From Nitrosomonas sp. (GTDB lineage Bacteria > Pseudomonadota > Gammaproteobacteria > Burkholderiales > Nitrosomonadaceae): a stretch of DNA of 64,000 nucleotides. A program made the translations under genes and the position numbers. The DNA is taken from positions 3,257,485 through 3,321,484 of the forward strand of contig JALDQW010000001.1 of assembly GCA_031316255.1 (NCBI GenBank), read 5' to 3'. A model generated the notes under the pieces. That model was given only the letters and a program-made list of their open reading frames with translations, was not told the DNA's origin and searched no databases. Shown piece by piece: positions 1-64,000 of the stretch (position 1 is the first letter of the stretch; each line of letters starts with the position of its first letter).

Positions 1-117
1 CATGAATTTATGGAGTTGCTCATCGGTCATGCCCCCGCTGGCGAACCAAACGAACAAACCCTTGTTGCGCTGAAAAAATTAATCCGCAGCGAACGCCTAA
101 ATCAGGAGCATGCCTGA
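1..117 (+). CDS. C-terminal end of an unknown protein (5' partial)
   Basis: Frame 1 is open from the window edge to a TGA at 115-117 and gives 38 residues ending in ERLNQEHA. The mix of charged and hydrophobic residues looks like real coding sequence. The stop lies inside the first codons of the next gene, an arrangement typical of translational coupling, so the two products probably work together; in STAND NTPase loci the neighbour is often an effector or sensor. The family cannot be named from 38 residues. Confidence 0.5.
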   Translation, partial: HEFMELLIGHAPAGEPNEQTLVALKKLIRSERLNQEHA

Positions 118-42535: not shown

Positions 42536-42548
42536 ATGACGGATAAAG

Positions 42549-44752: not shown

Positions 44753-46159
44753 ATGGACAAATTAAATATCATTTCTTTCAGAAATAAAAACATACACCAG
44801 AATTCCTTCCATTCTGTTTTATTCAAAACAGGTTTCAAGATTAACCTGATTCGGGACAAGCGTCTGATTCAAAAATTGATCTCCGATCAAACAGATGTCA
44901 ATTTATTTGTCTTCGATGATCCAGAGGCATGTAGTGACGATATTTATCAAACCGTAACCGAAATCATTAACCGTAATTTCCTGTCCACTAATTTGTGCGC
45001 CTTGTTTTCAAGGCCCGCAAAAAGTTATGACACTTTCTTTTCCAGTTTTGACGACTTATTATTCTGGCCTTTTGAAGAACCGGAGCTTGATCTGCGCATA
45101 AAACGTTACCGGAACAGGCATAAAAAATACAGCCCGGCATTCGGGCAAAAAGTCTTCGATGATTTTTCCGCATTAAACCTTGTAGGCCGCTCCCCGGTTT
45201 TTACCAGAATGTTAAAACTGATCAAGCGCATCGCTCTATACGACGCGCCGGTATTAATTGAAGGCGAAACGGGCACGGGAAAAGAAAATATCGCACACTC
45301 AATCCATTGCCTGAGTAACCGCAGAGATCATAATTTTGTCCCGCTCAATTGCGGCGCCATCCAGGATAATTTGCTGGAAGCTGAATTATTCGGACATGAA
45401 AAAGGCGCATTTACCGATGCAAAAACCCGTCAGGAAGGTCTGGTCGGCATCGCGAAGGAAGGCACATTGTTTCTGGATGAAGTGGATTGTCTGTCACCCA
45501 AGGCGCAGGTTTCACTGTTGCGTTTTTTGCAGACAAAAGAATACAGACCGCTTGGCTCAAACCGCACTTATCAATCCGATATCAGAATCCTGGCTGCAAC
45601 CAATGCTGATTTGCAAGACAACATCAATCACAATCTGTTTCGTGAAGATCTCTATTTCAGACTGAATGTGCTGAATATCTACTCTCCTTCATTACGCGAA
45701 AGAAAACAGGACATCCCGTTAATCGCAGAAAAACTCATTTCAGATTATGCGGCGCAATACAACTTGCCACTCCGGCAGCTCTCGGCCAAAACCATCGAGA
45801 ATCTGACAAAACAATTGTGGCCAGGTAACGTTCGGGAATTAGAAAATGTTTTATTGCGCGCCTTTCTGTTGACTGACGACCCGGTAATAGATATCGATAT
45901 GAAGAATCATGATTTACCGGATCATGAAATCGCGAAACACATTTTCCAAAAACCGGACACGGCAGAATTAAAATTTCAGGATGCAAAATCCATTGTAATT
46001 CAAAATTTCGAACAGGATTATCTTGAAAAAATCCTCAACAAAACCGATGGCAACATCACAAAAGCGGCCGCCATTGCCGGTAAAGAACGCAGGGCCATCG
46101 GAAAATTGATAAAAAAATACAATATCGACAAGAATTGTTTTACTTCGAAACCCTCCTGA
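44753..46159 (+). CDS. Sigma-54-dependent transcriptional activator with degenerate receiver
   Basis: A 468-residue NtrC-type protein. Residues 1-125 have receiver-like spacing, with Asp55/56 in LFVFDDPEA, but the conserved Lys-Pro near the end is replaced by Trp-Pro (FWPFEEPEL), so normal phosphorylation is doubtful. The AAA+ domain has Walker A GETGTGKE (171-178), Walker B TLFLDE (238-243) and the sensor region WPGNVRELENVLLRA. The sigma-54 contact loop reads GAFTDA (218-223) instead of GAFTGA. A Fis-type helix-turn-helix ends the protein (GNITKAAAIAGKERRAIGKL). It is convergent with the injection-system operon and may control it; this is inferred from position only. Confidence 0.88.
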   Translation: MDKLNIISFRNKNIHQNSFHSVLFKTGFKINLIRDKRLIQKLISDQTDVNLFVFDDPEACSDDIYQTVTEIINRNFLSTNLCALFSRPAKSYDTFFSSFDDLLFWPFEEPELDLRIKRYRNRHKKYSPAFGQKVFDDFSALNLVGRSPVFTRMLKLIKRIALYDAPVLIEGETGTGKENIAHSIHCLSNRRDHNFVPLNCGAIQDNLLEAELFGHEKGAFTDAKTRQEGLVGIAKEGTLFLDEVDCLSPKAQVSLLRFLQTKEYRPLGSNRTYQSDIRILAATNADLQDNINHNLFREDLYFRLNVLNIYSPSLRERKQDIPLIAEKLISDYAAQYNLPLRQLSAKTIENLTKQLWPGNVRELENVLLRAFLLTDDPVIDIDMKNHDLPDHEIAKHIFQKPDTAELKFQDAKSIVIQNFEQDYLEKILNKTDGNITKAAAIAGKERRAIGKLIKKYNIDKNCFTSKPS

Positions 46160-46167
46160 CATTCAGC

Positions 46168-46191
46168 TGGCCTTTCAGCATTAACAGGCCA
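46168..46191. terminator. Weak hairpin between convergent genes
   Basis: TGGCCT and AGGCCA pair across a 12-base loop in the 93-base gap between the activator and the last gene of the minus-strand operon. There is no U-run on either strand, so termination is only suggested by position. Confidence 0.25.
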
Positions 46192-46252
46192 TTGAAAAAC
46201 ACTCTGTCGTGCTGCGGTATGTTCTACAAATTTATGATTAAACGATGATGAA

Positions 46253-48793
46253 TTAAAGCCCGGGACCGATCCGGTTGACGAATTGCGATAAATCCAGCGC
46301 CAGCAAAGCCGGGCGCAAGTCGCCAGGCAAGGTTGCCCGCGCAACAGCGGCCCGTGACTGCCAGTCGGCCATTATAGGATCCACTATATCCTGGCTCAGG
46401 CGCACCTCCCGGTTATACGCTTCCCGCAAGGAACGCGCGATTGGCTCATAGGAATAATGCCAGGGTTCGGGCGCATGGCCGCCGGTCCGACCGGCGGTGT
46501 AAGTTCTGAAAAACCCCACTCGCGGCGCATTTTGTTCCAGCCACACACCGAGAGAATGCAAACGTCCGGCGGGACGACCCGCTCCCGGCGAGGGCGCCCA
46601 ATGGGCATTTGTAGTGGAATTGAAGTCCACCTCCGTACCCCAATGATGCCGTGAAGCACCGGGAATGGCGGAAAACCGCAATATTATTTCAAGACGCCGC
46701 GCCGACGATTCACCCAACCATGCCGCTCTATCCACCCCGCTGCTTCTGTTGCCGCCGACAAAGTACCGGTCTGGCAGTGTATCCCAGCCGTTCGCCCGGC
46801 TGCCGGTAAGCGTGAATTTTTCAAAAACAATTTGCGCCTGCGGTGAAGCGCCTCCCACTCGCGTATCAAACATGCGCCGTCCCGAGACGATCCGCACCGC
46901 AACGGGACGCCTGGGACGCAACCCGTTTAACAACCTGACCGCATTGTTAATTCGCGCCTGAATCCTGTTATAAATCGCATTTGTGGACGCCAACCGCCCG
47001 GTCAAAAACAAACGCTGATTGGCTATGGTCATCGCCTGGATGTCGCGAACAATTTGCGAATCCGCGTCGGCCAACGTCCCTGGAGCAGCGACGAATCCTG
47101 ACAGCGCCTGCACATAACTGGTGGTGGAACGGGCCCCGGTGGCGGCCAGACTGCCATAAGTAGGCGCTTCAACCGTAATCACTGGAGTCAAATACCCTGG
47201 TCGGCTGGCGCTTGGTGCCCATCTGCCGAACGTAGGATCATTCGGCATTTGGCCAGGGCGATCACCGGGATATACCGCTGTCGGTGAGCGGGTGCCCAGT
47301 CGGTTCGCCTGGCGGATAGTGCCCGGTAATCGGTTCGCCATAGCCAATGCTAACTGGCTTGCCGTAGGGTGTGTATTGGGATCGGCAAAAACCCCGGCGC
47401 GACCGGGACGGCTAACGGCATGCCCGGTTAATATTCGATGCGGTTGAAAATCGCGCACAATATTAATCACACCCTGCGTTTCCGGTTGGATTGGTGCGCG
47501 GCGGGTATTCGGGCAACGGGAAGAGGCGCTCGGTGTCGGCGCACCGGGTACCCGGTAATTGCGATTTAAATCGACAAATTGACGATTGCAGCGCCGGTCA
47601 TACCAAGTAACGCCGGCCAGGTTATCTTCTACGGCGCCACGATTAACACGCGGGATAATAAGCGTATGAAACGCCAGCGGTACTTGTCCCCCGCGCACTT
47701 GAGTCATAAATGCCTCAACCATTTCGTATCCCGGCCGTTCATCTCCGTGAAAACCGCCCATTATCAAGGCGCGTTGATCGGTATGCTGCACATGAGCCGG
47801 AAAAAAATACGCTTCAATAGGCCAGCGTGTAACGGTAGGCACCGGCTGAGCGTCGGGAGTCGGTACCGGAGAAGGCATATTGGTCAGCGCCCTCGCCCCA
47901 GGGAAGTCAGCCGCGTGAGCGATATGGCCGGTTTGTTCTCCCAGAATCTGTATCCAGGATAACAGATCGGTATGCGTGGTTTTGCCTTCTTCTATGTCGG
48001 TCCTGATTTGCCGAGTGGGTAAGACATCGCGTTGAATGATCTCCGCATCTAATACGGTTTGCGCAGTTGTTAGTCCACAGGCGTTCTGTTGTACCACATG
48101 GGTCAGTTCATGTCCCAATAAGCGCCGTCCGGCCGTTGTGGACGGTGCATACTCACCGTCACCGAACACGACATCCCGGCCTACGGTAAAAGCCCTGGCG
48201 TGTATAGCGCGAGAGACTTGCGCCGCTTTACTACCGGTGTGAATTCTTACACCACTGAAATCCCTCCCGAAGCGCGGTTCGAAAAATGCGCGTTCCGCAC
48301 CTGGCAAGGACCGCCCCCCACCCCGGCGGATACGCTGAATCTGAGCAGCCACTTCGGAAGTCAGACGCGTAGCATAATTACCCTCAGTCTTCGTGTAAAC
48401 GATTTCCTGCTCTTGCTGTTCTTCCTGCTCTTCTTCATTTAGCACGTTTAGCACGCATTGAATATCAGGCAGTTTATGAACATGGTGATTGCTACTCCGA
48501 ACTATGGCGGCATCGTCATGACCTGACACACAAGAACCGAACGGTTTGACTGTTCGATTCTTACCATCGGGATCAGGCATTTGCAAAATGTGATCGGCAA
48601 CCCGGTCGGCTTCCTTCTCGAAGCGGTCACCGGGTTGTCCGATTTCGAGTTTAGTTTGAATACTACGGGACGCATGCAAAAGATCGACTACCGTACCGTC
48701 TTGTTGCGCATCCATTTGTTGGCGGCGTGACGCAACCTTTGCTTTTTTCTTGTCACTTGCAGGTTTGGTTGTCGTTGTTAACGCCGTTTCCAC
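46253..48793 (-). CDS. eCIS cargo: DUF4157 + M14 carboxypeptidase-like + M15 VanY-like domains
   Basis: An 846-residue predicted injected effector. The N-terminal eCIS part has RFEKEADRVADHIL (58-70), FFEPRFGRDFSGVRIHTG and HELTH (228-232). The middle is M14-like: HGDE (349-352) for metal, DLNRNY (408-413) for substrate, H458 as third ligand and E542 in ITVEAPTYG as catalytic residue. The C-terminus is M15/LAS: SRHHWGTEVD (714-723) and EPWHY (776-780). Both enzyme families include peptidoglycan stem-peptide hydrolases (MpaA, VanY/DdpX types), so the likely target is a bacterial wall, or the producer wall during release. No signal peptide. Last gene of the operon, with no recognisable immunity partner. 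Confidence 0.85.
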   Translation of the reverse strand: METALTTTTKPASDKKKAKVASRRQQMDAQQDGTVVDLLHASRSIQTKLEIGQPGDRFEKEADRVADHILQMPDPDGKNRTVKPFGSCVSGHDDAAIVRSSNHHVHKLPDIQCVLNVLNEEEQEEQQEQEIVYTKTEGNYATRLTSEVAAQIQRIRRGGGRSLPGAERAFFEPRFGRDFSGVRIHTGSKAAQVSRAIHARAFTVGRDVVFGDGEYAPSTTAGRRLLGHELTHVVQQNACGLTTAQTVLDAEIIQRDVLPTRQIRTDIEEGKTTHTDLLSWIQILGEQTGHIAHAADFPGARALTNMPSPVPTPDAQPVPTVTRWPIEAYFFPAHVQHTDQRALIMGGFHGDERPGYEMVEAFMTQVRGGQVPLAFHTLIIPRVNRGAVEDNLAGVTWYDRRCNRQFVDLNRNYRVPGAPTPSASSRCPNTRRAPIQPETQGVINIVRDFQPHRILTGHAVSRPGRAGVFADPNTHPTASQLALAMANRLPGTIRQANRLGTRSPTAVYPGDRPGQMPNDPTFGRWAPSASRPGYLTPVITVEAPTYGSLAATGARSTTSYVQALSGFVAAPGTLADADSQIVRDIQAMTIANQRLFLTGRLASTNAIYNRIQARINNAVRLLNGLRPRRPVAVRIVSGRRMFDTRVGGASPQAQIVFEKFTLTGSRANGWDTLPDRYFVGGNRSSGVDRAAWLGESSARRLEIILRFSAIPGASRHHWGTEVDFNSTTNAHWAPSPGAGRPAGRLHSLGVWLEQNAPRVGFFRTYTAGRTGGHAPEPWHYSYEPIARSLREAYNREVRLSQDIVDPIMADWQSRAAVARATLPGDLRPALLALDLSQFVNRIGPGL

Positions 48794-48860: not shown

Positions 48861-50102
48861 TTAAGCAAGATCACGCACCGCATTGCAATAGGTTTCGGAG
48901 ACGTCATTATTCGTGCACGCAGTAATACCGCCTTCGGCAGCCACGTGACGCAGCGCGCCTGTGATATGCCATATTTCATGGGCAATATGATTACAATTAC
49001 CGTTCGGATTGGGTTGATTGACCGCGATGAAAAACATGGAGGGTCCGGTATATTCAACATCATAGTCATTCCCGCGATCATCCTGTCCACCCAGAATGGT
49101 TGTGCCGCCGCCCGTACCGCGCACCTCATCAACAACCAGCATAGGAATACCGCGGGCACCGGCAACAAGATCGCCTTCACCGATTGTCTCCTGCGGTTCA
49201 GGCACATCACGTAAACCGAGAGGGTCGTTTGCAGGACGTGCATGCCGGCTCGCCGTTTCAATGGATGCGGCCCCGGGAATTAACGTCCAGTTAAAATCGA
49301 ATTTGATATTGAGACAGCAGTTGCGCAAAATGGTCTTCGCGCCATCGATAGCAGTGCGCAAATGCTCCATTGTTTCGCGGTTTGCCCGGCGTGCAAAAAA
49401 CACGGTTACCCACAGGTCTTTGATGCCGCCATTACAGTCTTCGCAATTGCCGTCAAAACAGCTGCGCTGCACAGACGGATTCAAACCGCCACGCTGCTGT
49501 ATCACGTGCGTGAGTTCATGCGCCAGCAGTTTGTCGCCTTCCAGAGTACCCGGCCGATACTGCCCCCTGTTAAACACAATATCGCGTCCCAGTGTAAAAG
49601 CACGTGCATGAATGGTTTCAGCCGACCGGGCAGCATGTTCATCCGTATGAATCCGTACATCCCCAAATCCATGCCCCATTCGCGACTCAAAAAATCCACG
49701 CCGCTCAACCGGCAGTTTCCTGCCTGCGCTCGACGGCGGCGCCTGGATAGTCCCCGCCTCAACCGCGCTACCAGTCTCATTCGTTTCCGGTTTAAGCTGC
49801 AATTCTTCCTCACATTCTTCACACAGCCGCTGTATGGATTGCGTGTCATTGGCAGGCCGGATTGCTGGCGCACCCGCTACAGCGGCACCTGCCTTACGGC
49901 CGGAAACAACCTGCTCGGCAACGCGGTCGGCTTCCTGTTCATAACAATCGTCAGGCTGCCCTATGCGCAGTTTAGACTGGATTCTTCCGCCCTGAATAAC
50001 CGACTGAACGGCTAATGGCTGTTCGGCATTCAAGTGAACGGACGGCCTTTTCTTTGATACCACCGCCGGCCTGGATTTCTTCTGTAATAATTGAATGTTC
50101 AT
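48861..50102 (-). CDS. eCIS cargo: DUF4157 + second zincin-like domain
   Basis: A 413-residue protein. The N-terminal module has YEQEADRVAEQVVSG, a Cys motif QRLCEECEEELQ, FFESRMGHGFGDVRIHTDE and HELTH (195-199). The C-terminal domain begins with CFDGNCEDC and carries a second HExxH, HEIWH (375-379), followed by Gly382 and His386. That is close to, but one residue longer than, the metzincin motif HExxHxxGxxH. A metalloprotease payload is the natural reading; the substrate is unknown. It is paralogous in its first 200 residues to the 396-residue protein at 51323-52513. Confidence 0.8.
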   Translation of the reverse strand: MNIQLLQKKSRPAVVSKKRPSVHLNAEQPLAVQSVIQGGRIQSKLRIGQPDDCYEQEADRVAEQVVSGRKAGAAVAGAPAIRPANDTQSIQRLCEECEEELQLKPETNETGSAVEAGTIQAPPSSAGRKLPVERRGFFESRMGHGFGDVRIHTDEHAARSAETIHARAFTLGRDIVFNRGQYRPGTLEGDKLLAHELTHVIQQRGGLNPSVQRSCFDGNCEDCNGGIKDLWVTVFFARRANRETMEHLRTAIDGAKTILRNCCLNIKFDFNWTLIPGAASIETASRHARPANDPLGLRDVPEPQETIGEGDLVAGARGIPMLVVDEVRGTGGGTTILGGQDDRGNDYDVEYTGPSMFFIAVNQPNPNGNCNHIAHEIWHITGALRHVAAEGGITACTNNDVSETYCNAVRDLA

Positions 50103-52516: not shown

Positions 52517-55500
52517 TTAGCCTTTGGTAATCAAGTCTTGCGCAGACACAATGAGCCGCTTTGCCGTCGCTGAACTTATACTGCGCACGGTTGTGAGTCT
52601 GGTTGCATCAGCGCCAGCCAGGTCTTCTACAGTGCTGATTCCCAGACTGCGTAAATCTGTATCGATTTCCGCAGTTACGAGCGGCAGCGTCATAACCGGT
52701 TTGGTCTTATTAACCGCAAATCGAAGGTCTTGTTGCTGTTTACCGGCTTCAAGAATATTCTTATTCAACTCGACCAGTTCTGCTGACAACGTGTTACGCA
52801 CCGACTGGATGGATTCAACTTGCACCTTGAGCGCAGCAAGTTCTTCCTGAACAGCCAGTTTTTCCGATTTCAGGGTGTCAATTTCAGTCCGGACTGCACT
52901 CAGTTCACCCAGATCCGCCCGGCGTGTTTCTACTTTTGCCAACTCGGCATTCAGCGCATCAAAATTGGCCAAAGCCTGTTTCCGATTTTCAAAATCCTGC
53001 AGTTCGGCTTTTACATTATCGGGTAGCGTTGCGGTAACAGTTGCGGGCTGTTTTTCAATGGCATAAAAAGCCACCTTGCCATCTTTCTGGTATAGCGTGA
53101 CTTTACTGCCCGGATCAATGCGTTGCGGGGTCTGGTTGAATTCAGTCAGATATACACCGGCATTATTGGCATCGTATTTTTTTATCGCGGCTACTTCGAC
53201 CTGATTGTTATTCAATTCCTTGATCGCATCATTGACATCACTTTGCAGCAACGCCTGTTTGCGCACCCCGATATTTTTACGGCGGCCGGTATCAGCCAGC
53301 GCAACAGCACGATCAGTCGCCAATTGACCGATAAACTGCGTTGTTTTAACCTGGTTTCTGAGCCCCGCTCTGATATCGGTGCGCTGATAGGTCTGCACGC
53401 TTTTTCTTGCAGTATTTGCGCTGACTCGATTTGTTACCGTTTGTGCAGAACCGATTGCCGGTATGGGTTTAATCACGTTATCCTGTTGCTTGGCAAAGAA
53501 ATCCGGCAAAATCGAACAGCACAGTCTTCCCACCGTCGTTTTCAGCAACGGCCAGACGGGAACAATCGAGAACCAGTATTCCATGGTTGGAAACGATTTC
53601 ACATACTTGCGCTTGTCAAAATTGCAGATGTTATACACCTTGTTATCGCGCACCTCGACGGTCGCAAGATAAATCACGTCCTCATCATCACAGGTAGGGC
53701 ATTTCACCAGCAAATGATCGCAGAAGCAATCTTTCAGGTATTGCAACAGGCCACCGAACAAGGCATAAAATACGCGCAGCACTTCCTGACGGTATTGTGC
53801 GAGTTGCTGCAGAAATGCGTCGGTCACATCGAGTTCATTGGCCGGAATCACGCTCACGGTATTGCTGATATAATTCAGGGCATAAATCTGACCGCTGCCT
53901 GAATCGACCCGCACATCTGTCGGCTGGATTTGGACCGGCACACGGAACACATTGCTTTTCTTGCCATTTTCATCGACTGTCTGGATACGATAGCCATCTT
54001 CCATCGCCAGTAATACCTGTTTCGATTCCTGATGATAGGCAAGACTGACGGTTGTATTCTCGATATCCAGCGTTGAGACAGGCTGGTTGTTATCACCAAC
54101 CGGTAAATTATAGGTCAAAAGCCGTTTGTTATCGGCGCCGTTGGGGCCATCGACAACGACATACAACCGTCCCGATCCACGACCACTTTTCTGGCTTACG
54201 GTTAAACCATCAGTGCCAGACAATGTCTGGCCGCTTTCATCCGTCAAAGGCAGTTCTTGCGGATTCTGTGTCTGCTGGCCGTCGATATTGAGGTTGCAAA
54301 TAAATACCCGGTCGTAGCGATCCGGATCAATGTCTTTTGACACACCCGTGCAATAGGCAAGCGCCGCTTGGCTATCAATGGCCAAATGACCGACTGCGTT
54401 AAATGCGTAGACGGGCTCTGGCCGCGGTTTTTCCTGGTCCATCAGCACTTCGGGGCGCAGATAAAAAAGCCCCTTGCCATAACCAACCGCATAAATCAGT
54501 CCGCTATCCTTTTGCGACATTTGCATGCCGGTAATTTCTATGTCGCAAAGAATCGTCATTTCTTCCCAGGCATGGTTGTCATTGACGCGGGCTATTCCGA
54601 ATACCGAATCGATGCCGCGCACGCTGGCAGCGGCATACAGCAATGCGCCATCCTGTGAAAAGGTGATTGCAGACACTTCGGCGCCCTCGGCGGACGGCAT
54701 TTCCAGTACCTGTATCAGTTCCTGTTTCTCAACACTATAGACATTGATGGTATTATCGGTGCCGCCATAGGAATACACCCGGTCTCCGGATGGATGCAAT
54801 TGGATACGGGTATGCAGGTTTTTGCCAAAGTAGGTCGTCATCCCGGTCTTCTCAAACGGATAATCGGGAAAATCCTGCCCCTGAAACATTGCGCAGAATG
54901 TTTTACTTTGCAAAAGACTTCTTAAATTCAGGTAAATGTCACGTAATATCAAATGCTCTTTACGGGACAGAAACACATAAGATCCATTCTCCTGATTGAA
55001 CAATTGAACGATCAAGTTGATAAAACTCGTCAGCTTTCTGCGTTCAATCGAAACCGGCCCATTTGTACCACCTTCAACTTCATTCAGTTCGTCGGTGTTC
55101 AGAAACTTGAATTCGGACACAATCGCTTCCACCAGATCCACGATACATTTCTGATAGAAATCCATCAGCAAGGTACCGTCCAGTATGGATTTATCGGCAT
55201 GCTTTTCTGAATCGTAAGGTTCAACGACAACCTGTGGCTGACCGTTAGCATCACGTTCCAGACGCAGGCAGACCGTGCCGTTACCCTCTTTTAGCACTTG
55301 GGTCCCCTGTTCTTCCAGCGCCTCGATACGCTGTATCAGATCAATAATCCGTTCGGATTCAAGAACGATATCATCGCCTTCACAGGTAATGGCATAGCCG
55401 GAAGTTATCTTGACTTCCCGCCGTTCCGCTACGCCGTCTTCGTCATCAGGATCAATATGCGTATCGGGTCCGCAGCGCGCGATCAATCCACAGACTATCC

Positions 55501-56974
55501 CCCAGCCATGCAGATGTTTGTTATGCCAGCGCAGATCGCGCGAATGGCACAACTGATCGATCGCATCCTGCACTGTTTTTGCGGTTGACAGACTGTCACA
55601 TTGGCTGCCGTCGTAACAAACATCTGTTGCCAGAATATCGGTCAGCGGCGGAAATTCAAAGCGTTTGCACTGATCACTGTCATACGCAACAAACTCACCG
55701 CCGATAACACTGCCAAGCGTCATGTAATGATGCACAATGCCGCGGGGTTCTTCATCAATCAACAGTACATCTCCGGCCACATTAACGGCCTGCCGCACAA
55801 CCGCATACCAAAAGTCACCGGCCAGAACCGGCAAGTCGGCAATTTCGACAGTCAACGTCATCACATCGTGATTGATTATCACCGTGCTGCCTTCAGTGAC
55901 ATGACCATGCGCGTCGCTACTCGAACCGGTGGACAAGTCCACGCCACGATCCGCGCCAGCGACCAGAGTCCAGTTGCCTGCTATTTTTTCAAGCGCGCAG
56001 TACCCGTCCCACCGGCGCACAGCGGTATAATCCGACGGTACCGAATCCGGGTAGCCTTTGGTTAATTCACCGCGTACCGGGGTAAAACCCGTCGCCAGGT
56101 GTTTTCCCAGATGCTTTTCGCTGTCATAGGTTTCCGGCGTAATTGCATCGGGATCAAGAAACCCGTCAAAAAATTCATACACCCAGTTATCCGAACCGAA
56201 ACCTGTCGGTTCAACGCCAATAGCATACTGCTCTGCACCGTTTTCAGACGACCATTTCAGGATAACGCGTTCAGGCTGACCACTTGCATTATATTGGACA
56301 TCATGCACTTCAACGCGAAACAGGTAATTTCCCAATTTGTCCTGTAGCGCAATCTCCTCTGCGCAGGGATCGCAGGGGTCCGGCTCGGTACTGCCCTGGC
56401 GCAATTCCAGTGTCAGCTTCGCTTCGCCAACCGGTGGATTGTGCGCGGCATTTTCTGGTGTTACTTCGGTTTCACACCATTTCACCTGCGCCATGGTTTG
56501 TGTACGGGTACAGGTATCTGCACCATGCAGGCCGGGATCGAGCAATTGTTGATCTTCCAGTGCAATAACCGTACGTTCCCAGACATCGACATAGAGCTGA
56601 TAATCCCCTGCGGGTAGCGCCGGCGCACCCGGAAAATCCGCCTGATGCTCATATTCAAATGCAACGCCGGTTGGATCGGTCAACGTTGCGGCAGGATCAG
56701 GGCGCACCTGCGCAATAATGCCGTCCACATAGCAATACCCCCACTGCAATGTGTAGCTTTTGCTGCCATCGGGATTTTCGGCAATCCTGACCAGACCCCG
56801 GTCGCGCGGCGTACCACTGCCGATTATGTCGGTTAATGCATCGGCCAGCCTGCTTTTGCTAAGATCGGTCAGTTCGTTCCAGTCGGCATCGGTGAGCATT
56901 CTGCCCATTTGCTGATAAATGCCGGAATAACGCTTTTTGGCATCAAAGCTGTTTCGTGACAGTTGTGTTTTCAT
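52517..56974 (-). CDS. DUF6519 injection-system protein with propeller, coiled coil and HhH tail
   Basis: A 1485-residue protein, probably a peripheral baseplate or fibre component. The N-terminus (MKTQLSRNSFDAKKRYSGIY; RMLTDADWNELTDL; WGYCYVDGIIAQVRPD) is the DUF6519 hallmark seen in phage-like and eCIS loci. Residues about 700-1080 repeat in a propeller-like way (GDRVYSYGGTDNTINVYSVE; SGQIYALNYISNTVSVIPA). A Cys-rich strip (CDHLLVKCPTCDDEDV) follows, then a coiled coil (about 1330-1420), then a helix-hairpin-helix-like end (LGISTVEDLAGADATRLTTV). This mix could give host binding plus assembly contacts. The ATG at 56974 is preferred to an upstream TTG. Confidence 0.8.
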   Translation of the reverse strand: MKTQLSRNSFDAKKRYSGIYQQMGRMLTDADWNELTDLSKSRLADALTDIIGSGTPRDRGLVRIAENPDGSKSYTLQWGYCYVDGIIAQVRPDPAATLTDPTGVAFEYEHQADFPGAPALPAGDYQLYVDVWERTVIALEDQQLLDPGLHGADTCTRTQTMAQVKWCETEVTPENAAHNPPVGEAKLTLELRQGSTEPDPCDPCAEEIALQDKLGNYLFRVEVHDVQYNASGQPERVILKWSSENGAEQYAIGVEPTGFGSDNWVYEFFDGFLDPDAITPETYDSEKHLGKHLATGFTPVRGELTKGYPDSVPSDYTAVRRWDGYCALEKIAGNWTLVAGADRGVDLSTGSSSDAHGHVTEGSTVIINHDVMTLTVEIADLPVLAGDFWYAVVRQAVNVAGDVLLIDEEPRGIVHHYMTLGSVIGGEFVAYDSDQCKRFEFPPLTDILATDVCYDGSQCDSLSTAKTVQDAIDQLCHSRDLRWHNKHLHGWGIVCGLIARCGPDTHIDPDDEDGVAERREVKITSGYAITCEGDDIVLESERIIDLIQRIEALEEQGTQVLKEGNGTVCLRLERDANGQPQVVVEPYDSEKHADKSILDGTLLMDFYQKCIVDLVEAIVSEFKFLNTDELNEVEGGTNGPVSIERRKLTSFINLIVQLFNQENGSYVFLSRKEHLILRDIYLNLRSLLQSKTFCAMFQGQDFPDYPFEKTGMTTYFGKNLHTRIQLHPSGDRVYSYGGTDNTINVYSVEKQELIQVLEMPSAEGAEVSAITFSQDGALLYAAASVRGIDSVFGIARVNDNHAWEEMTILCDIEITGMQMSQKDSGLIYAVGYGKGLFYLRPEVLMDQEKPRPEPVYAFNAVGHLAIDSQAALAYCTGVSKDIDPDRYDRVFICNLNIDGQQTQNPQELPLTDESGQTLSGTDGLTVSQKSGRGSGRLYVVVDGPNGADNKRLLTYNLPVGDNNQPVSTLDIENTTVSLAYHQESKQVLLAMEDGYRIQTVDENGKKSNVFRVPVQIQPTDVRVDSGSGQIYALNYISNTVSVIPANELDVTDAFLQQLAQYRQEVLRVFYALFGGLLQYLKDCFCDHLLVKCPTCDDEDVIYLATVEVRDNKVYNICNFDKRKYVKSFPTMEYWFSIVPVWPLLKTTVGRLCCSILPDFFAKQQDNVIKPIPAIGSAQTVTNRVSANTARKSVQTYQRTDIRAGLRNQVKTTQFIGQLATDRAVALADTGRRKNIGVRKQALLQSDVNDAIKELNNNQVEVAAIKKYDANNAGVYLTEFNQTPQRIDPGSKVTLYQKDGKVAFYAIEKQPATVTATLPDNVKAELQDFENRKQALANFDALNAELAKVETRRADLGELSAVRTEIDTLKSEKLAVQEELAALKVQVESIQSVRNTLSAELVELNKNILEAGKQQQDLRFAVNKTKPVMTLPLVTAEIDTDLRSLGISTVEDLAGADATRLTTVRSISSATAKRLIVSAQDLITKG

Positions 56975-57022
56975 AATCAAAATTCCGTAAATAACAAAAT
57001 GATTTGTTAATACTCGTTGCGT

Positions 57023-58594
57023 CTACTCAGGTATATCCAGCAGACGCGTATCAGGGATGACCACGGCTTCCTTACCCAGCGGCAAATAATCGTTGAGTTT
57101 TTCAATAACTGCATCAGCCAGTAGACTTAAATAATCGCTGTGATAGGCGCCCATTTCGGTGCCGTCTTCCGCGCCGTGCACGATGGCTTCTGGAGTCGCT
57201 GGATGCAATACCCCGCAACCCCGTTCACCAAATTTCGTTGAAAACATCACCGGTAAAGCACGCGTGGTATGAATCAATCGCATATCGCCTTCATCCTGAT
57301 CCTTGGCGATACGTGAATACCGGACGCAGTGTCGTACCGGCGGAGTCAGATCGGGCAGGTGATGCCTGTGAACCAGTCCCAGAAAAATGCAATCGCTGGC
57401 AAAAAGATGCTCGCTCAAGGTCGACTCCAGAACCGTGCAATACTCCAGCTTAACCAGCCCGCGTGCAGCCTGAACCTGTCTAAACAAACAGTCTTTGGCC
57501 GTAATCACGGCAGACACTTTGTCGATACTGTGCACTTCAACCTTGCGTGCAGCGCACTTCACCAACTCCACCCGTCCAGAATCCAGCACTAACGTATTGA
57601 GTATATTGACGCCTTCAAAGCGCCAGATATGAAAATCGGGATCACCAACACCATCGGCAACCTGTCCAAGCTGGATCGTCCTGCGAATATTGACCGGACT
57701 GAAATTGTCCCGACCGAATGTCTTATTACGATAGACTGTGGTATTTCCCTCGGTTATCACATCAATACGTTTCAAAAACGCTTCGCCGGGTTCTTCCGAC
57801 CAGTTCACGGTCTGTATGTTTGCAGGAAAAGAACCGGCCGGCGGAACGGTATAGAGCAAAATACGATCCGGATGAAAATGACCGTGCCGCCAGTTTCCAC
57901 AACGAAAATCCACGGTGCGGCGGGAAACATCTTCATAGCTGCCAGGGTTGCATGGCGCGCCATGAAAACTCACCTGACGCCATACCCGGGCGTCGCCATC
58001 GATTTCACTTTGCTGCGCAGCCGGATTACTGGTGTTGGATGAAACGGCGCCGGATGTACAACGAAAATCCGGTGTAACGACCGGCAAATCGGGATGACGG
58101 GACGCAATTGACGGCGGTTCCACAGGCACGGTTTTACTGAAACCATAAAGCGTTTCCGGAATAAGCGGCGCGTCAATTCGCGGCGTCATGGCGACATGCT
58201 TCCAGCCTTCGTGCAATACCACTTCGAGTTGCGCAATCGATTCGGCCACTTCTTCAACGACGCGCAGCGTCCCTTTTCTCTGCCGCCAGCGGATGGCTTT
58301 GGCAATTTCATCGCGGCGGCCTTTTACCAGCGGAGAAACCAGCCGCACATCCAGCAAATCTGCAAAATAGGGTAACAGCCAGTCCTGACACGCCAGTGAA
58401 TTATCCAGCGGATTATCCGGGAAATTATCGGCAAGCAATTGATCCAGCGTCGCGTGCAGTTGATTGAGCAACACCGCATTGCCGGTGAAATATTTCTTCA
58501 GATCCCCACTGCCGCCATACTGCGAATTATCCCGATTGCGGTAAACCGCCGGGACAATTCGATAAAGTATTTTGTCATACGCTTTGTCAACCAT
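57023..58594 (-). CDS. Phage tail protein I-like baseplate component
   Basis: A 523-residue protein. The start (YDKILYRIVPAVYRNRD) and the block LPYFADLLDVRLVSPLVKGR, then EIAKAIRWRQRKGTLRVVEEVA, are typical of gpI-like tail proteins of the TIGR02242/eCIS type. The extended C-terminus (GVGDPDFHIWRFEGVNILNT; ERGCGVLHPATPEAIVHGAE) looks beta-rich. It should sit at the baseplate periphery and link to fibres. It is nine bases after the J-like gene, in the same operon. Confidence 0.85.
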   Translation of the reverse strand: MVDKAYDKILYRIVPAVYRNRDNSQYGGSGDLKKYFTGNAVLLNQLHATLDQLLADNFPDNPLDNSLACQDWLLPYFADLLDVRLVSPLVKGRRDEIAKAIRWRQRKGTLRVVEEVAESIAQLEVVLHEGWKHVAMTPRIDAPLIPETLYGFSKTVPVEPPSIASRHPDLPVVTPDFRCTSGAVSSNTSNPAAQQSEIDGDARVWRQVSFHGAPCNPGSYEDVSRRTVDFRCGNWRHGHFHPDRILLYTVPPAGSFPANIQTVNWSEEPGEAFLKRIDVITEGNTTVYRNKTFGRDNFSPVNIRRTIQLGQVADGVGDPDFHIWRFEGVNILNTLVLDSGRVELVKCAARKVEVHSIDKVSAVITAKDCLFRQVQAARGLVKLEYCTVLESTLSEHLFASDCIFLGLVHRHHLPDLTPPVRHCVRYSRIAKDQDEGDMRLIHTTRALPVMFSTKFGERGCGVLHPATPEAIVHGAEDGTEMGAYHSDYLSLLADAVIEKLNDYLPLGKEAVVIPDTRLLDIPE

Positions 58595-58603
58595 CGTTCA
58601 ACT

Positions 58604-61465
58604 CTATAAACTAAAAGCCTGCGTTGTAAGATCGATTACCGACACCTCGCTGTCCAGGTAAATCACCTGTTGGTCATGTACGGAAACGCGTTTGATTGCG
58701 CCATCAACACCCTCGGTTACTTGTCTTGGCATTACCGGATTGCCCGCCGCATTGAAAAACCCGTCGGGATTGATTTCACACTGGCTGTTTGCAACCCCGG
58801 TCACTCCTTCAACGACTTTAAACACTGCGCTGAGATAAAGCGGACAGCCCAGTTTTGAATTTTTCAATGAGAAAGCTGTTTTTAGCGCTTGCAGAACATC
58901 TTCGGTCACAATGTCCTGGTCGAATTCATCCGTTTTTACACGAATCGTGATTTTGAGATCGAGAATGATCGATTCGAACGGCAAAACATTAACCGTGACG
59001 CCGGGCAGCGAATGACTATCAAAATAGGCCGTTAATGCATCGCCAAGTCCACCGAGTTCACCGCCGCCTGCAGGAACGATCGCGATGTTGATCCGGTTTT
59101 TTTGTACAGATCCCTGCCGCTGGTATGCGCGCGCTTGCCACACGCCGCTATAGCGCGTCGCCAGATGTGTAAAATCAGCAAGTGACACCGCGCGCTCAAG
59201 CGTTAAAATACTACCCGGCGCATTATCCCGCATCGATTCGCCCGACTCCATATCGTTGCCACCACTGGACGGTATCGGTTGGCGTATTGAATCGACAATC
59301 GAATTGGGTTTGACTATTTTTTTAAAACTGTACGGGGCCAGATTGCCTGATAGTCCCCCGCCTACCCGGTAGACAATACGTACATTATTACTGCCTGTCG
59401 GTAACCGGCGGCCATGAATACCGTCGCCAAATTCTATCTGCAAGGTGCCGTTCTCATTCATCCTCACGACATAATGCATATCCTCCGGCTCGGAGTCATT
59501 GAGTGTAGAAACCTGTTTCCAGGTCCGGCTATCCACCCGAACCGAAATCGCGGCGCGTACACCATTGGTAAAATTCGGGTCGGTGACAAAACTGACATTC
59601 TCGACATCAAAATCAAACTGCTGGTTTGTCTGCGTTGCATCACCGGAGCCCAGTATTTTTTCTTTGCGTGTTTCCCCATGACCGGATTGAACAACATTGC
59701 CGTAAATTTTTGTGGAGTAACGGGTATAGTCATCCGTCATCCCGCTTCCGGTCAGTTCGCTGCCGGGTATCGCCGGTTCAATCTTGATCCGGCGGTTTAA
59801 TTCATCGACATCCTTGACGGTCACTTCCATCGCGCTGCTGCGCCCTTCGACTATCAGCGACCTGCCAATCGTTAACAGTTCGGGAAAATCTTCCAGCGCC
59901 ACAGGCAAAAAACAATGACTATCAGACCGGTATTGCGGCTGCAACAGAAATGCCGGCACTTCGTTCATGGCATAATTCAACGGACGCAGTTCAACCTCAA
60001 AATTGCCGAACAGCGTTTCACTGCCGCTAAACGATCCACTGGAAAGCTTGAGTTGATAGTCTTTTTCATTTTCGGTCAATGCATCAATCCGGGCTGCAGT
60101 AATGTCGCTGCCATCCTGTAAAATCATCCAGTCGCCCGTTGCAAGATCGCCGGGATCGCCTTCGAGCAAAATGTTTTGCGGTTTGCTCGTTAAAACAGTG
60201 GCTACAATTTTTGCTGCGGTTGATGCATTGTCTTTTGGAACATAATAAACAAGGTCATAACTGCTGCCATTTTTATAGGTATAAACAGGCTGACCACTCT
60301 CGTTATGGGTCGAATAACTGTTAATCTTTTGTAGATCCGCATCAAACAGTCCCCACTGCTCCCGATAATCCACTAATGGCAAGATAACGCGTCGCACAGC
60401 GCTGCCACCCACAGTCATATCACGCGCTTCAGAAAAAGCCGTCAGATACAGTTCAGTACCGGATGCGGGTGCTGAGCGCGACAAACGCACACGATCATTC
60501 TGGACTTCCTCTACAAATGCCGCTATCCAGGTATAGCCTTCTTTCCAGGCGACAACGGCCTTCGTACTCAATCCATGATCAGGCTTCAGGATGACAACAT
60601 CATCGCCGTTGATTTTCGGCGTTTGTTTAAAATCCGGCTTCAACAACAGCCTGACCTGATACCGTTTAATCGCATGCGGAAAACCGGCAGGTCTGTCTTC
60701 ACCCTGCAACTTTATTTGCTGGTCCGCTATCTCGGTGACCTTTACTGCCAGTCCTTTTGTCTGCAGACCGGTATCAACCAGCAATACGCCCAGAGTACCG
60801 ACCGACACATTCTCAACCGGCTCGCTTAAGGGAAAAACGGCGGAATTGGTGCTGTCATCATAAATAAAATCGATCTGAGATTTATTCCAGTCCTCGATTC
60901 GTATTTCATTGAGTTGTTCGTCAACGTCCAGATCGCTCAACGTTTCAAAAACGGACGGCTTGCTGCCATCGTCCGGACTGTTCTTAAATGCAAAACCGGC
61001 TTCAACGGTGCCTGACTTGTCCGTTTTGGCGAATAACACAATCGGTGTTTCCGCCGATGCGGGCGGGGCCGGATGGTAGTCGAGCATTTCAACCAGACGG
61101 CGTATATTCTGCCACTGCGTTGCGGTACGGATAAATGACTCGTTGGCGTAGGCATCCACATATTCACCGAGTATATGCGCCGCTCTGGCATAGCTGCGCA
61201 ATATCTCCCATCCGTAATCGTGACGTTCGGCATAATATTGCTGCAGCCAGCGCGCCTGCCGTTCTTCAGGTGTTTCATCAACCGATTGTGGAATTGCGGT
61301 CTCCAGCGCTTTCCATTTTAATTTTACGCCCGTCGTGAAGGCATCGCGCTGCGCCAGACGCAACGTTTCCAGGAAAGTAATGGCATTGCCATCTACATAA
61401 CGGAATCGGCTCAGCCCTGAACGGTTCCAGCGTGTCAAATCCTTTTTATCCGTCAGCGAATTCAT
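58604..61465 (-). CDS. Large baseplate J/gp47-like assembly protein
   Basis: A 953-residue protein corresponding to the second J-like component of Afp/PVC-type systems (TIGR02243-like). The C-terminal part has the conserved VSLADFTHLATRYSGVWQAR, PGVTVNVLPFESIILDLKI and CPLYLSAVFKVVEGVTGV. Residues about 180-600 are insert domains rich in beta structure. It overlaps the upstream gene by four bases (ATGA). With the next protein it would form the wedge ring around the spike. Confidence 0.85.
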   Translation of the reverse strand: MNSLTDKKDLTRWNRSGLSRFRYVDGNAITFLETLRLAQRDAFTTGVKLKWKALETAIPQSVDETPEERQARWLQQYYAERHDYGWEILRSYARAAHILGEYVDAYANESFIRTATQWQNIRRLVEMLDYHPAPPASAETPIVLFAKTDKSGTVEAGFAFKNSPDDGSKPSVFETLSDLDVDEQLNEIRIEDWNKSQIDFIYDDSTNSAVFPLSEPVENVSVGTLGVLLVDTGLQTKGLAVKVTEIADQQIKLQGEDRPAGFPHAIKRYQVRLLLKPDFKQTPKINGDDVVILKPDHGLSTKAVVAWKEGYTWIAAFVEEVQNDRVRLSRSAPASGTELYLTAFSEARDMTVGGSAVRRVILPLVDYREQWGLFDADLQKINSYSTHNESGQPVYTYKNGSSYDLVYYVPKDNASTAAKIVATVLTSKPQNILLEGDPGDLATGDWMILQDGSDITAARIDALTENEKDYQLKLSSGSFSGSETLFGNFEVELRPLNYAMNEVPAFLLQPQYRSDSHCFLPVALEDFPELLTIGRSLIVEGRSSAMEVTVKDVDELNRRIKIEPAIPGSELTGSGMTDDYTRYSTKIYGNVVQSGHGETRKEKILGSGDATQTNQQFDFDVENVSFVTDPNFTNGVRAAISVRVDSRTWKQVSTLNDSEPEDMHYVVRMNENGTLQIEFGDGIHGRRLPTGSNNVRIVYRVGGGLSGNLAPYSFKKIVKPNSIVDSIRQPIPSSGGNDMESGESMRDNAPGSILTLERAVSLADFTHLATRYSGVWQARAYQRQGSVQKNRINIAIVPAGGGELGGLGDALTAYFDSHSLPGVTVNVLPFESIILDLKITIRVKTDEFDQDIVTEDVLQALKTAFSLKNSKLGCPLYLSAVFKVVEGVTGVANSQCEINPDGFFNAAGNPVMPRQVTEGVDGAIKRVSVHDQQVIYLDSEVSVIDLTTQAFSL

Positions 61466-62868
61466 CCGCGTTGGCCTCCATGCAGCACCACACGCAAAAT
61501 ACCCAGTCCCGGATTTTGGGTATCATTGTTACACGTAGCGATCTCCAGACCGTCCAGACGAATACGGCCTGCATCGGCCTGGTTTGGATAACGTTTCCCG
61601 ACACGCTTGAAACGGTTCAGGCATACCGCTTCCACACCATCGATTTTCATCACGGTTTCAATAATATCGCCGGCATGCAGATCCTCGCCGAAAGCCAGTC
61701 TGCCCGGTGCAAAAAATCCACCCAGCGCCGTGCTAAGCGCCCGGATAATGGCATGTCGAATTTCCGACTGAAAATAATTATTGGCCACCCGCACGGAAAG
61801 TGAAATATTAATACCGGCAAACCGCGCATCCTGCAGAAAAACTTCCTGTGCCGCCATTCTGTAGGCGTCAAGATATGGACGCAAAACAATACGCGGCGTC
61901 GGTTCTATGGCCCAATCGACGTCACCCAGTTCATGTTGCTGATTGAATTGATCGATACCTGTCTGCAACAGCGCGAGATTGCTGACACCGCCCACACTTC
62001 CTGCTGTCAGCGGCACATCCAGCGTTATATTTTCTATCATTACCATCGCCGCATAAATGGTGTTCCACGACCCTGTCCAACGGCTATACGCATGTGCGCG
62101 CAGCACCAGCGGATGGTCTTCCAGTCTTTCCGCATAATCGCCCTCGGTCACCATCCGCTTTTGTGTATGGATGGCGCGCGGTCCTGATGCGCGCGCTTTC
62201 TCCATCGCATATGGGTACAGTGTCCAATAATTGTGCAAGGCGTCGTTACGCGCACGCATGACAAACTCGGGTGCGTTATCAAGAAAAAGCTGAACCGCAT
62301 CAAGTGCAACCAAAGGCGCGCCCGCAGGATTATCGATAAATACCTGGAAATTCGCCTGTTGTGCGGGCGTCATTTCATCAATGGCGTCCTGATAATCCGA
62401 ACGATACTGCTGTAACGCCAGATAAAATGTCTGCAAACGCGCTCTTCGCGTCGCTTCATCCTCACTCGCAGCGCCAGTAGCATCGGGAATTTTTGCTTCG
62501 GAACCGGCCAGATTGACGGCATCATAACCAATCATTTCCAGCAACCGCCGCACCGATTCAGGACGCCGCGCCGTTTCAAGAAACGCTTCGGTCTGTACAC
62601 GATCGAGCATATCGGACAGTTGATCCAAAACGACCGACATGGTTTCTACAATCACCACTTCCATATCGGCCGGTGTCCAGCGCCGGCGCTCCGGAAAACG
62701 CGCCGCCAGTTCCTCCAGCATAAACAAGCGAAAACCGTCGTAATCGCGCACCAGCCAATCGAAGTCATCACCGACTTTGGGCAGTGGATCCGGCAGTTTT
62801 ACCTGGCGATAGCCGCAGTCGCTGCAGCCATCGGCGAAATATAACTCGGATGACGGTTGCTCTGCCAT
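61462..62868 (-). CDS. Baseplate J-like wedge protein (Afp11-like)
   Basis: A 468-residue wedge protein. The N-terminus has CSDCG, perhaps a metal-binding turn, and then DFDWLVRDYDGFRLFMLEEL, WTPADMEVVIVETMSVVLDQ and LDRVQTEAFLETARRPESVR, which are landmarks of the J/gp6 family. The C-terminus (FAPGRLAFGEDLHAGDIIET) is conserved too. The ATG follows directly on the gp25 gene stop, so translation is coupled. Confidence 0.88.
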   Translation of the reverse strand: MAEQPSSELYFADGCSDCGYRQVKLPDPLPKVGDDFDWLVRDYDGFRLFMLEELAARFPERRRWTPADMEVVIVETMSVVLDQLSDMLDRVQTEAFLETARRPESVRRLLEMIGYDAVNLAGSEAKIPDATGAASEDEATRRARLQTFYLALQQYRSDYQDAIDEMTPAQQANFQVFIDNPAGAPLVALDAVQLFLDNAPEFVMRARNDALHNYWTLYPYAMEKARASGPRAIHTQKRMVTEGDYAERLEDHPLVLRAHAYSRWTGSWNTIYAAMVMIENITLDVPLTAGSVGGVSNLALLQTGIDQFNQQHELGDVDWAIEPTPRIVLRPYLDAYRMAAQEVFLQDARFAGINISLSVRVANNYFQSEIRHAIIRALSTALGGFFAPGRLAFGEDLHAGDIIETVMKIDGVEAVCLNRFKRVGKRYPNQADAGRIRLDGLEIATCNNDTQNPGLGILRVVLHGGQRG

Positions 62869-63258
62869 TTACTGATCCCCTCCGACAACAAATTCCAACT
62901 GCTCTGAATGATTCAGCGTCGCCAGTGTGTACGCGATGGTAATGAACAGTTTTTCGCCTTCGCCGGTCACGTTCACTTCCAGACTTGCCGGCGCGACTTC
63001 TCCCGCCAGCGCTTCATTAAGGGACGCGGACAGCCTTTTTTTGGTAATCTCCCATATTGCCGGGCTGTTCGGTTCGAATACCAGTGCACGCACGCCTGCG
63101 CCGAATTCAGGGCGATACCAGCGCTCCCCCGCATCGGTGAACAGCACCTGTTCGATTTGTTCGCGGACATGGTGCTGACGGTTGCTCGTAGCCGCACCGT
63201 TTTCCCCGATTTGCATCGGGAACTTCATATAATCCGGATTATTCAGTCGAGTCGCCAT
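62869..63258 (-). CDS. gp25/GPW-like baseplate protein (Afp9-like)
   Basis: A 129-residue protein with the gp25 pattern: NRQHHVREQIEQVLFTDAGE, RWYRPEFGAGVRALVFEPNS and EITKKRLSASLNEAL. It forms the inner baseplate collar that starts sheath assembly. It sits between the spike and J genes, as in Afp, PVC and many T6SS clusters. Confidence 0.93.
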   Translation of the reverse strand: MATRLNNPDYMKFPMQIGENGAATSNRQHHVREQIEQVLFTDAGERWYRPEFGAGVRALVFEPNSPAIWEITKKRLSASLNEALAGEVAPASLEVNVTGEGEKLFITIAYTLATLNHSEQLEFVVGGDQ

Positions 63259-63314
63259 AATCGTCCAATCCTGTATCGTTCAATCCCCTGCCGTTTCCGT
63301 CACTTAAATCCACA

Positions 63315-64000
63315 TCAGAGCGCCTTGGTTTTCGTCGTCAACACAACCGGCGTTAACGGTGGCACCGGCGGCCCAGACGGGGAACCGGGCGCGGTGCACA
63401 CATGCGTATGGGCGTTGAACAGAGATAAAAATGTCTGCGCCTTGATCAATGGTTCTCCACCCTGTCCCGCCACGTCGACGGTTGTACCTTTAATCACAAC
63501 CTGCGTTCCTTCCACGGTAATGCCACTGGCAGCCATTTGTATGGTGTTGCCATTACTGTCCTTGATTTCGGTGCCGCTGCTGTCCATTGTTATTTTGTTG
63601 CCATTGGCGTCTTCCACGATGATCTTGTTGCTTTCAGCATCGAGTGTTAGCGTATTACCCGCAGCATCTTCGGTTTTAACGGTGCCTTGCGGATCAATGG
63701 TCATTTCCGTGCCGGACGGGTGCGCCAGCCGGAATTGCTCTTCTCCACTGGCATCATCGAACTGTAAAACATGACCGGATGGCGTGCGGATAATACGCGT
63801 CGTCGGCTCATCCAGCGCGGCTTCCTCGGGCGTATCGCTTTCCTGCTGCCAGAAAACGCCGACCCAGATCGGGCGATCCACATTGCCTTCTTCAAACTCA
63901 ACCCAAATCTGCGCATCCACTTCGGGAATCATAAAAAGTCCCTGGTTGGTCAGCCCGCCAAACGGCATACACGGCAACGCCCAGCCGGTATCCTGATCAC
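63315..64000 (-). CDS. Spike protein, gp5/VgrG-like baseplate V (5' partial)
   Basis: The frame is open to the window edge, so the N-terminus is missing. The visible 228 residues begin in an OB-fold (IPEVDAQIWVEFEEGNVDRP; IWVGVFWQQ) and continue as short repeats (GNTLTLDAES, NGNKITMDSSG, NGNTIQMAASG) that build the triangular needle. The end (NAHTHVCTAPGSPSGPPVPP) is typical of phage baseplate V proteins. No separate PAAR tip gene is present between it and the J genes, which differs from Afp. Confidence 0.88.
   Translation of the reverse strand, partial: DQDTGWALPCMPFGGLTNQGLFMIPEVDAQIWVEFEEGNVDRPIWVGVFWQQESDTPEEAALDEPTTRIIRTPSGHVLQFDDASGEEQFRLAHPSGTEMTIDPQGTVKTEDAAGNTLTLDAESNKIIVEDANGNKITMDSSGTEIKDSNGNTIQMAASGITVEGTQVVIKGTTVDVAGQGGEPLIKAQTFLSLFNAHTHVCTAPGSPSGPPVPPLTPVVLTTKTKAL

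Follow-up and report, generated by a model that had tools for sequence, protein, structure and literature searches.

The closest described relatives of the protein studied here are the toxins of extracellular contractile injection systems (eCIS) known as EATs, which share a DUF4157 domain near the N-terminus, a C-terminal enzyme payload, and a position at the 3' end of the eCIS operon (PMC8213781). The protein is encoded in a window of 64,000 nucleotides, the whole stretch of DNA that was analysed, from Nitrosomonas sp. (GenBank assembly GCA_031316255.1, contig JALDQW010000001.1, positions 3,257,485 to 3,321,484). It is very likely an eCIS cargo, in which a DUF4157 module (eCIS_core) is followed by an M14-type and an M15-type peptidase domain, and it might serve as a weapon by stripping a rival bacterium of its wall peptides. 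One of the EATs, EAT10, is a predicted peptidoglycan hydrolase whose toxicity to E. coli was 10^4-fold higher in the periplasm than in the cytoplasm (Geller 2021, PMC8213781). Unlike the present cargo, EAT10 is listed without DUF4157 in Table 1 of that paper, and the terms VanY, M15, and carboxypeptidase are absent from its main text. A further survey found a peptidoglycan-binding domain in 68 of the predicted eCIS toxins (PMC11297309). The first-pass annotation of the window had regarded an antibacterial function of an eCIS cargo as new; this novelty was rejected, since antibacterial eCIS toxins including EAT10 have been published (PMC8213781, PMC11297309).

Related designs are known from the type VI secretion system (T6SS). 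The double-blade WHIX and other bifunctional effectors likewise combine two toxic domains, mostly anti-peptidoglycan, in one injected protein, and a few contain M15-like domains; they differ in belonging to the T6SS and not to an eCIS, in carrying WHIX between the domains, and in needing immunity proteins (PMC12135965). The T6SS L,D-carboxypeptidase/transpeptidase Tlde1a is a precedent for L,D-carboxypeptidase toxicity, and has the same predicted outcome as the present cargo, a toxic trimming of tetrapeptide stems; it differs in its cysteine L,D-transpeptidase fold and in having an immunity protein (PMC9638812). In VgrG2b, a C-terminal DUF4157 metallopeptidase with an HExxH motif is likewise carried on a contractile machine; there the DUF4157-type domain is itself the antibacterial toxin, whereas in the present cargo it appears as a carrier module (PMC6899460). 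No description of the combination of eCIS_core, M14, and M15 was found in the parts consulted of the literature on DUF4157 and contractile injection systems. Antibacterial eCIS cargos and two-domain T6SS peptidoglycan effectors are known already; the M14 and M15 pair on an eCIS leader would be a variant of such designs. The features of the cargo gene are as follows.

46253..48793, minus strand: eCIS cargo gene (eCIS_core, M14, and M15), 846 amino acids, GTG start, terminal gene of the eCIS operon
48578..48661, minus strand: leader motif, residues 45-72, from a BLASTP match to sister cargos
48080..48307, minus strand: eCIS_core (PF13699, DUF4157), residues 163-238, Pfam E 6.7e-32
47141..47833, minus strand: M14 domain, MpaA-like, residues 321-551, from hhalign, Pfam (M14 and AstE_AspA_cat), and a profile match to MpaA structures
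47738..47749, minus strand: HGDE, residues 349-352, with zinc ligands H349 and E352
47561..47566, minus strand: N410-R411 of DLNRNY (which starts at 408), the M14 pair for the C-terminal carboxylate
47420..47422, minus strand: H458, third M14 zinc ligand
47168..47170, minus strand: E542 of PVITVEAP, M14 catalytic glutamate
46403..46918, minus strand: M15 (VanY/LdcV-like) domain, residues 626-797, from hhalign, Pfam (VanY), and phmmer
46625..46654, minus strand: SRHHWGTEVD, residues 714-723, with zinc ligands H716 and D723
46454..46468, minus strand: EPWHY, residues 776-780, with catalytic E776 and zinc ligand H779

The reading frame is open across all 846 codons (translation of the open reading frame, ORF), and AAGGA starts 12 bases 5' of the GTG start codon. 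The leader and the operon make it very likely that the protein is a cargo. Its eCIS_core scored 109.9 bits against a curated cut-off of 22 in Pfam, and contains HELTH at residues 228-232. Within the leader motif, E59 is kept in at least 90% of 34 aligned cargos. No peptidoglycan-binding domain was found in the cargo by the Pfam scan, and the PHROGs and PADLOC scans gave no match for it.

Relatives of the two peptidase domains were gathered from genome searches and from a pattern scan of genome contigs, and were aligned as stretches. The M14 alignment holds the query and 33 relatives, retained from 35 M14 matches (L183-L217); the M15 alignment holds the query and 61 relatives, out of 107 M15 matches. 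Redundant and weak rows were dropped from both. A combined alignment of M14 and M15 failed to separate the halves and was not used. When the halves were compared by hhalign with homologue profiles built without the query, the M14 half was matched at 97.8% (E 8e-13, residues 321-551) and the M15 half at 99.8% (E 8.5e-28, residues 626-797). The controls (the M15 half and the neighbouring cargo against the M14 profile, and the M14 half against the M15 profile) gave 0.1-0.3%. Chance motif matches were rejected on the profile E-values and these controls. The three domain assignments are nearly certain. Pfam and hhalign agree with the first-pass annotation on the ORF, its DUF4157 module, and its M14-like and M15 sites, and both halves also exceeded Pfam cut-offs. 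The M15 domain, earlier placed from residue 690, starts near 626.

The M15 half is the more clearly matched by Pfam. VanY (PF02557) was found at residues 683-784 with an E-value of 7.2e-17 and 61.9 bits against a cut-off of 25. The NCBIfam model vanY_BG also matched (E 3.6e-6), far under its cut-off. A phmmer search of residues 301-846 against the PDB identified M15 carboxypeptidases (4mph, E 2.1e-6; 4jid, E 2.6e-6), and the profile of the M15 alignment matched 11 PDB sequences, including LdcB, VanY-type, and D,D-dipeptidase/carboxypeptidase entries. Both M15 signatures, SxHxxGxxxD and ExWH, are present (S714, H716, G719, D723, E776, and H779). The residues S714, H716, D723, E776, and H779 are kept in 61/61 homologues, 37 of which came from a scan using a pattern inside the SRHHWGTEVD motif; S714, H716, G719, and D723 are also found in all 24 of the homologues obtained otherwise. 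There is no VanY match in the own genome besides the cargo.

A maximum-likelihood tree was reconstructed from 62 M15 stretches. The query fell in a group of 37 rows (branch 96/97), made up largely of leaderless proteins from Pseudomonadota and Bdellovibrionota; two other groups of 17 and 8 rows, labelled secreted, clustered apart from it. The N-terminus scan flagged 27 of the 107 M15 proteins as secreted. Four records of the plasmid collection also matched, in the M15 part only, among them two from Proteus mirabilis (35% identity, E 8e-11) and one from Aeromonas caviae (39%, E 3e-6), and one M15 gene of each of these two species' plasmids has no leader by eye. In V. cholerae, A. hydrophila, and P. 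mirabilis, LdcV serves wall recycling as a zinc L,D-carboxypeptidase of the LAS family (PMC8649774). The Proteus and Aeromonas matches are probably LdcV, and the tree group of the query might consist of leaderless LdcV-like L,D-carboxypeptidases, with the query on a long branch; no named LdcV is among the rows of the tree. The likeness of the cargo to LdcV lies in the LAS-family zinc enzyme and in this tree group, mostly leaderless M15 proteins of such bacteria. They differ in that LdcV is a housekeeping enzyme. The choice between an LdcV-like and an LdcB-/VanY-like enzyme is uncertain because of the query branch of 2.24.

The M14 half is MpaA-like, but falls short of an MpaA equivalog assignment. 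MpaA is the murein tripeptide amidase that splits gamma-D-Glu from meso-diaminopimelate. Pfam placed Peptidase_M14 at residues 339-461 (E 1.2e-4, 22.3 bits, barely over the cut-off of 21.6; 25.3 bits for the domain alone) and AstE_AspA_cat at 340-414 (E 3.3e-6), over its curated cut-off. The profile of the M14 alignment matched the MpaA structures 5hxd (6.3e-23) and 4axv (1.2e-21) best in the PDB, followed by animal carboxypeptidases (from 1.5e-5) and then by aspartoacylases. The NCBIfam MpaA model was matched by 34/34 members of the alignment, including the query (E 8.3e-5, 21.7 bits). These results suggest that the M14 half is nearest to the murein amidase MpaA, with which it shares the profile match and the ligand and catalytic residues; it differs in scoring far under the equivalog cut-off, in an extra stretch before E542, and in being fused. 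One other M14 match was found in the own genome.

The residues H349, E352, N410, R411, and H458 are kept in 33/33 M14 homologues, H458 being also placed by hhalign. The glutamate E542 was aligned to PVITIELP by hhalign and by MAFFT genafpair; MAFFT --auto misplaces it, as no gap is opened for the extra stretch of the query. No alignment of the M14 rows cut into pieces was correct at both H458 and E542. The residues named in the first-pass annotation (HGDE, DLNRNY, E542, SRHHWGTEVD, and EPWHY) thus align with their families, and the third ligand H458, which had been left unnamed, is added to them. The roles of these residues in zinc binding, catalysis, and carboxylate binding (N410-R411) are what we take to be general to the two families. 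The zinc-ligand and catalytic residues are intact in both domains, and would come together in space as in the homologues. One or both domains might be inactive relics kept as binding modules, as the low identity of the M14 half to its aligned relatives (23-28%) and the long M15 branch could indicate. The intact residues in both domains and the open frame make such a loss of activity very improbable.

Related leaders are found in sister species, joined to other payloads. An eCIS_core match was found in 38/85 genomes of the genus, and was strong (E < 1e-20) in 17. The 34 aligned cargos comprise 3 of the own genome and 31 from 20 fetched sister stretches; they were picked by a regular expression that misses some cargos, such as the 1232-residue cargo of two sister genomes (L167 and L170). 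All 34 matched eCIS_core. Payload matches among them were to OmpA (4), M35 (3), PG_binding_1 (2), and IpgD, Ntox16, annexin, and PT-TG (1 each); VanY and M14/AstE payloads were matched only in the cargo studied here. In L167 and L170, the 1232-residue cargo occupies the corresponding cargo block. It shares the leader (37% and 39% identity over residues 1-236), and no match beyond was found at E 1e-3 by BLASTP. The G+C content is 57.7-58.8% in the payload, 52.1% in the leader, 49.2-54.6% in the other measured eCIS genes, and 47.9% in the window. The shared leader with other payloads in the sisters, together with the GC-richer payload, points to a payload that was swapped in and acquired separately from the leader.

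One sister-species DUF4157 cargo (L171:1626-4112) carries an IpgD-like payload (E 7.1e-29), which suggests a eukaryote-directed cargo in the same genus. The peptidases themselves might be delivered to protists or grazers, in order to destroy immune-stimulating muropeptides or to trim host peptides. The IpgD-like and annexin-like payloads of the sister cargos would fit, as would the matches of the M14 profile to animal carboxypeptidases, at weaker E-values, and a mediating role in interactions with invertebrates was known for four eCIS (PMC8213781). Both domains are nearest to bacterial wall-peptide enzymes, and their pairing makes little sense unless stem peptides are the substrate, so that a eukaryotic target seems improbable for this cargo.

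Three sister cargos (L157:2864-4528, L159:994-2664, and L163:2827-4422) contain an OmpA-family domain near the C-terminus; this domain usually binds peptidoglycan. The DUF4157 module was also compared by regular expression in 38 proteins (the aligned cargos and L053-L056). The motif ExEAD precedes HExxH in 27 of them and follows it in 5, among which are three weak proteins of the own genome (L054-L056). One protein has it both before and after, and in 5 it was not detected. DUF4157 looks like a permuted zincin, in which the Glu motif may give a metal ligand.

The distribution of the fusion was searched with residues 301-846 of the cargo in four overlapping samples of genomes: 199 relatives, 398 genomes from the phylum, 300 from the order, and 274 from the class. 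Often only part of the first-look candidates in a genome was scored. Matches of any kind were found in 15/199, 87/398, 40/300, and 41/274 genomes, the own included. Among the matches listed in these samples, none outside the own genome spanned both halves; each covered the M14 half alone or the M15 half alone. A scan of genome contigs with six 8-residue patterns, the only sampling of other phyla, gave 68 loci, all of which matched within the M15 half or started shortly before it; the widest (L065) covered cargo residues 564-807. No match to the patterns was found in IMG/VR. The search of the phage collection gave no match. No fusion of eCIS_core to M14 or M15 was detected in the ORFs of L009-L126 by a regular expression that can miss variants; its eCIS_core flags were L053, which belongs to the own genome, and L098, a false one.

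In the search of relatives only one other member of the genus (G073) matched, in the M15 half only. This bears on whether the enzymes act on the wall of the producer itself, for particle release or for passage through the wall during firing. The cargo is the last gene of the eCIS operon, with no convincing immunity gene adjoining it, and the contractile injection systems of Streptomyces do act on the very cells that make them (PMC10066040, PMC10020575). The two-domain protein is not needed for release in general, because the search of relatives found it in no other member of the genus although 38/85 genomes have an eCIS_core match, and its leader is one that sister species attach to other payloads. 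A self-directed role is accordingly a rather remote prospect.

The preferred interpretation is a polymorphic eCIS cargo with two successive stem-peptide trimming steps in a bacterial target, to which we give a probability of about 0.4. Residues 1 to about 250 (the leader motif and eCIS_core) would dock the cargo on the injection particle, at its baseplate or spike. Two DUF4157 proteins of Streptomyces offer a parallel: a tube-initiator protein co-elutes with one of them (PMC13277306), and both spike and tube-initiator proteins with the other (PMC11126660). The C-terminal 500 residues or so would be the swapped-in payload, with two zinc enzymes, which the particle would deliver into a bacterial target. 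Stem peptides are the likely substrate. The M15 enzyme would remove the terminal D-alanine of the stem peptide, most likely as an L,D-carboxypeptidase that converts tetra- to tripeptide like LdcV; the M14 enzyme would next split meso-diaminopimelate off the tripeptide, at gamma-D-Glu|mDAP as MpaA does. We infer these two reactions and their order from the LdcV-like and MpaA-like resemblance. Dipeptide stems would remain, which could be neither cross-linked nor reused, and the wall would be weakened and not cut open.

A related proposal is a two-step recycling weapon: one protein would deliver two consecutive reactions of peptidoglycan-peptide recycling (LdcV-like, then MpaA-like), and would disable a rival by stripping both the stem peptides and the recyclable muropeptides, without any cutting of the wall. 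This is conceivable but doubtful. No description of such a mode of contractile-injection killing was found in the parts of the contractile-injection literature consulted.

A lytic payload would be a different matter. At least one of the domains would then act as an endopeptidase on the intact sacculus of a bacterial target, cleaving cross-links or the L-Ala-D-Glu bond, and the target would lyse. The M15/LAS family does include endopeptidases. For the predicted peptidoglycan hydrolase among the eCIS toxins, toxicity is much higher in the periplasm (PMC8213781), and M15-like domains occur in a few T6SS effectors (PMC12135965). Among solved structures, the M15 half is closest to named carboxypeptidases, and the M14 profile to MpaA, followed by carboxypeptidases and aspartoacylases; the cargo also lacks a recognizable peptidoglycan-binding domain (Pfam). 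Lysis is therefore unlikely, if less so than a eukaryotic target. The first-pass annotation had described a dual wall-degrading payload. Two unrelated zinc domains of the stem-peptide-cutting type were indeed found, and the word degrading is only partly right, because MpaA-type amidases and LdcV/LdcB/VanY-type carboxypeptidases trim and are not classic lytic endopeptidases.

Several observations weigh against trimming in a bacterial target by an LdcV-like and an MpaA-like enzyme. In the M15 tree the query sits on a very long end branch (2.24), and its placement was flagged as unsure. The rows of this tree were found using the query itself; 26 of them are labelled secreted, 16 flagged by the scan and 10 by hand, and one of these sits in the query's group. 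The M14 score of the query is modest, and the MpaA equivalog cut-off of 157 bits is far from reached (17.5 bits and E 0.0016 for the full protein; 21.7 bits for the domain alone). A phmmer search with the M14 half alone gave no significant PDB chain (best 1yw6, E 0.23; MpaA 4axv, E 0.89), and 31/34 members of the M14 alignment also match an aspartoacylase model. By the N-terminus scan 22/34 M14 proteins look secreted, so that the term recycling enzyme fits the M14 half only by family. The IpgD-like and annexin-like sister payloads imply that the eCIS of the genus may also address eukaryotes. Finally, no convincing immunity gene adjoins the cargo: the gaps of 93 bases to a regulator and 67 bases to the second cargo contain no free-standing ORF, only short overlapping ones such as 46018-46344 (minus strand, 108 amino acids).

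The remaining genes of the eCIS operon in the window, on the 5' side of the cargo, are listed below.

48861..50102, minus strand: second eCIS_core cargo, 413 amino acids, 70% identical in L167 and L170
50197..50985, minus strand: 262-residue protein of the cargo block, no family match, with an about 52% identical protein in L167 and L170
51323..52513, minus strand: third eCIS_core cargo, 396 amino acids (Pfam)
52517..56980, minus strand: 1487-residue DUF6519 protein of the eCIS operon (Pfam)
57023..63977, minus strand: baseplate genes (Tail_P2_I, two TIGR02243-like, gp25, and Phage_base_V)

The two TIGR02243-like genes score under the cut-off of that model, and one of them also matches Baseplate_J. 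The operon runs on beyond the window (L052) with CIS_tube, AAA, Pvc16_N, gp19 tube, and sheath genes. No phage capsid family was found among the 20 ORFs scanned (one gene twice), and no spike tip (PAAR) or fibre gene was identified in the scanned ORFs of the operon. On the other side of the cargo, a regulator of sigma-54 type (assigned by eye) lies convergently on the opposite strand and ends 93 bases away. The second cargo has an extra HExxH motif (HEIWH) near the C-terminus and only a weak PHROG match; it may carry a metallopeptidase payload of its own.

An insertion sequence with a Mutator-type transposase (window 42548-43962; Pfam on the window copy) is located near the cargo end of the operon. 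The same element, 94% identical over 1415 bases, is found at L053:523-1937, near a fourth strong eCIS_core gene. Elsewhere the window encodes a 1186-residue WD40-repeat protein (110-3667; PF00400), a 1496-residue protein with RTX calcium-binding repeats (14709-19196; PF00353, E 1.4e-39), and a 583-residue protein of the animal haem peroxidase family (31187-32935; PF03098, E 4.6e-117). The genome contains three AMO-family genes with identical scores. The AMO family includes methane monooxygenase as well, and the bacterium is therefore only a probable ammonia oxidiser.

The payload predicts that two bonds are cut in one molecule, which bears on whether the eCIS of this probable ammonia oxidiser targets bacteria. 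It would extend to the eCIS a two-enzyme effector design known from the T6SS. The shared leaders with exchanged payloads also let cargo swapping be traced inside one genus.

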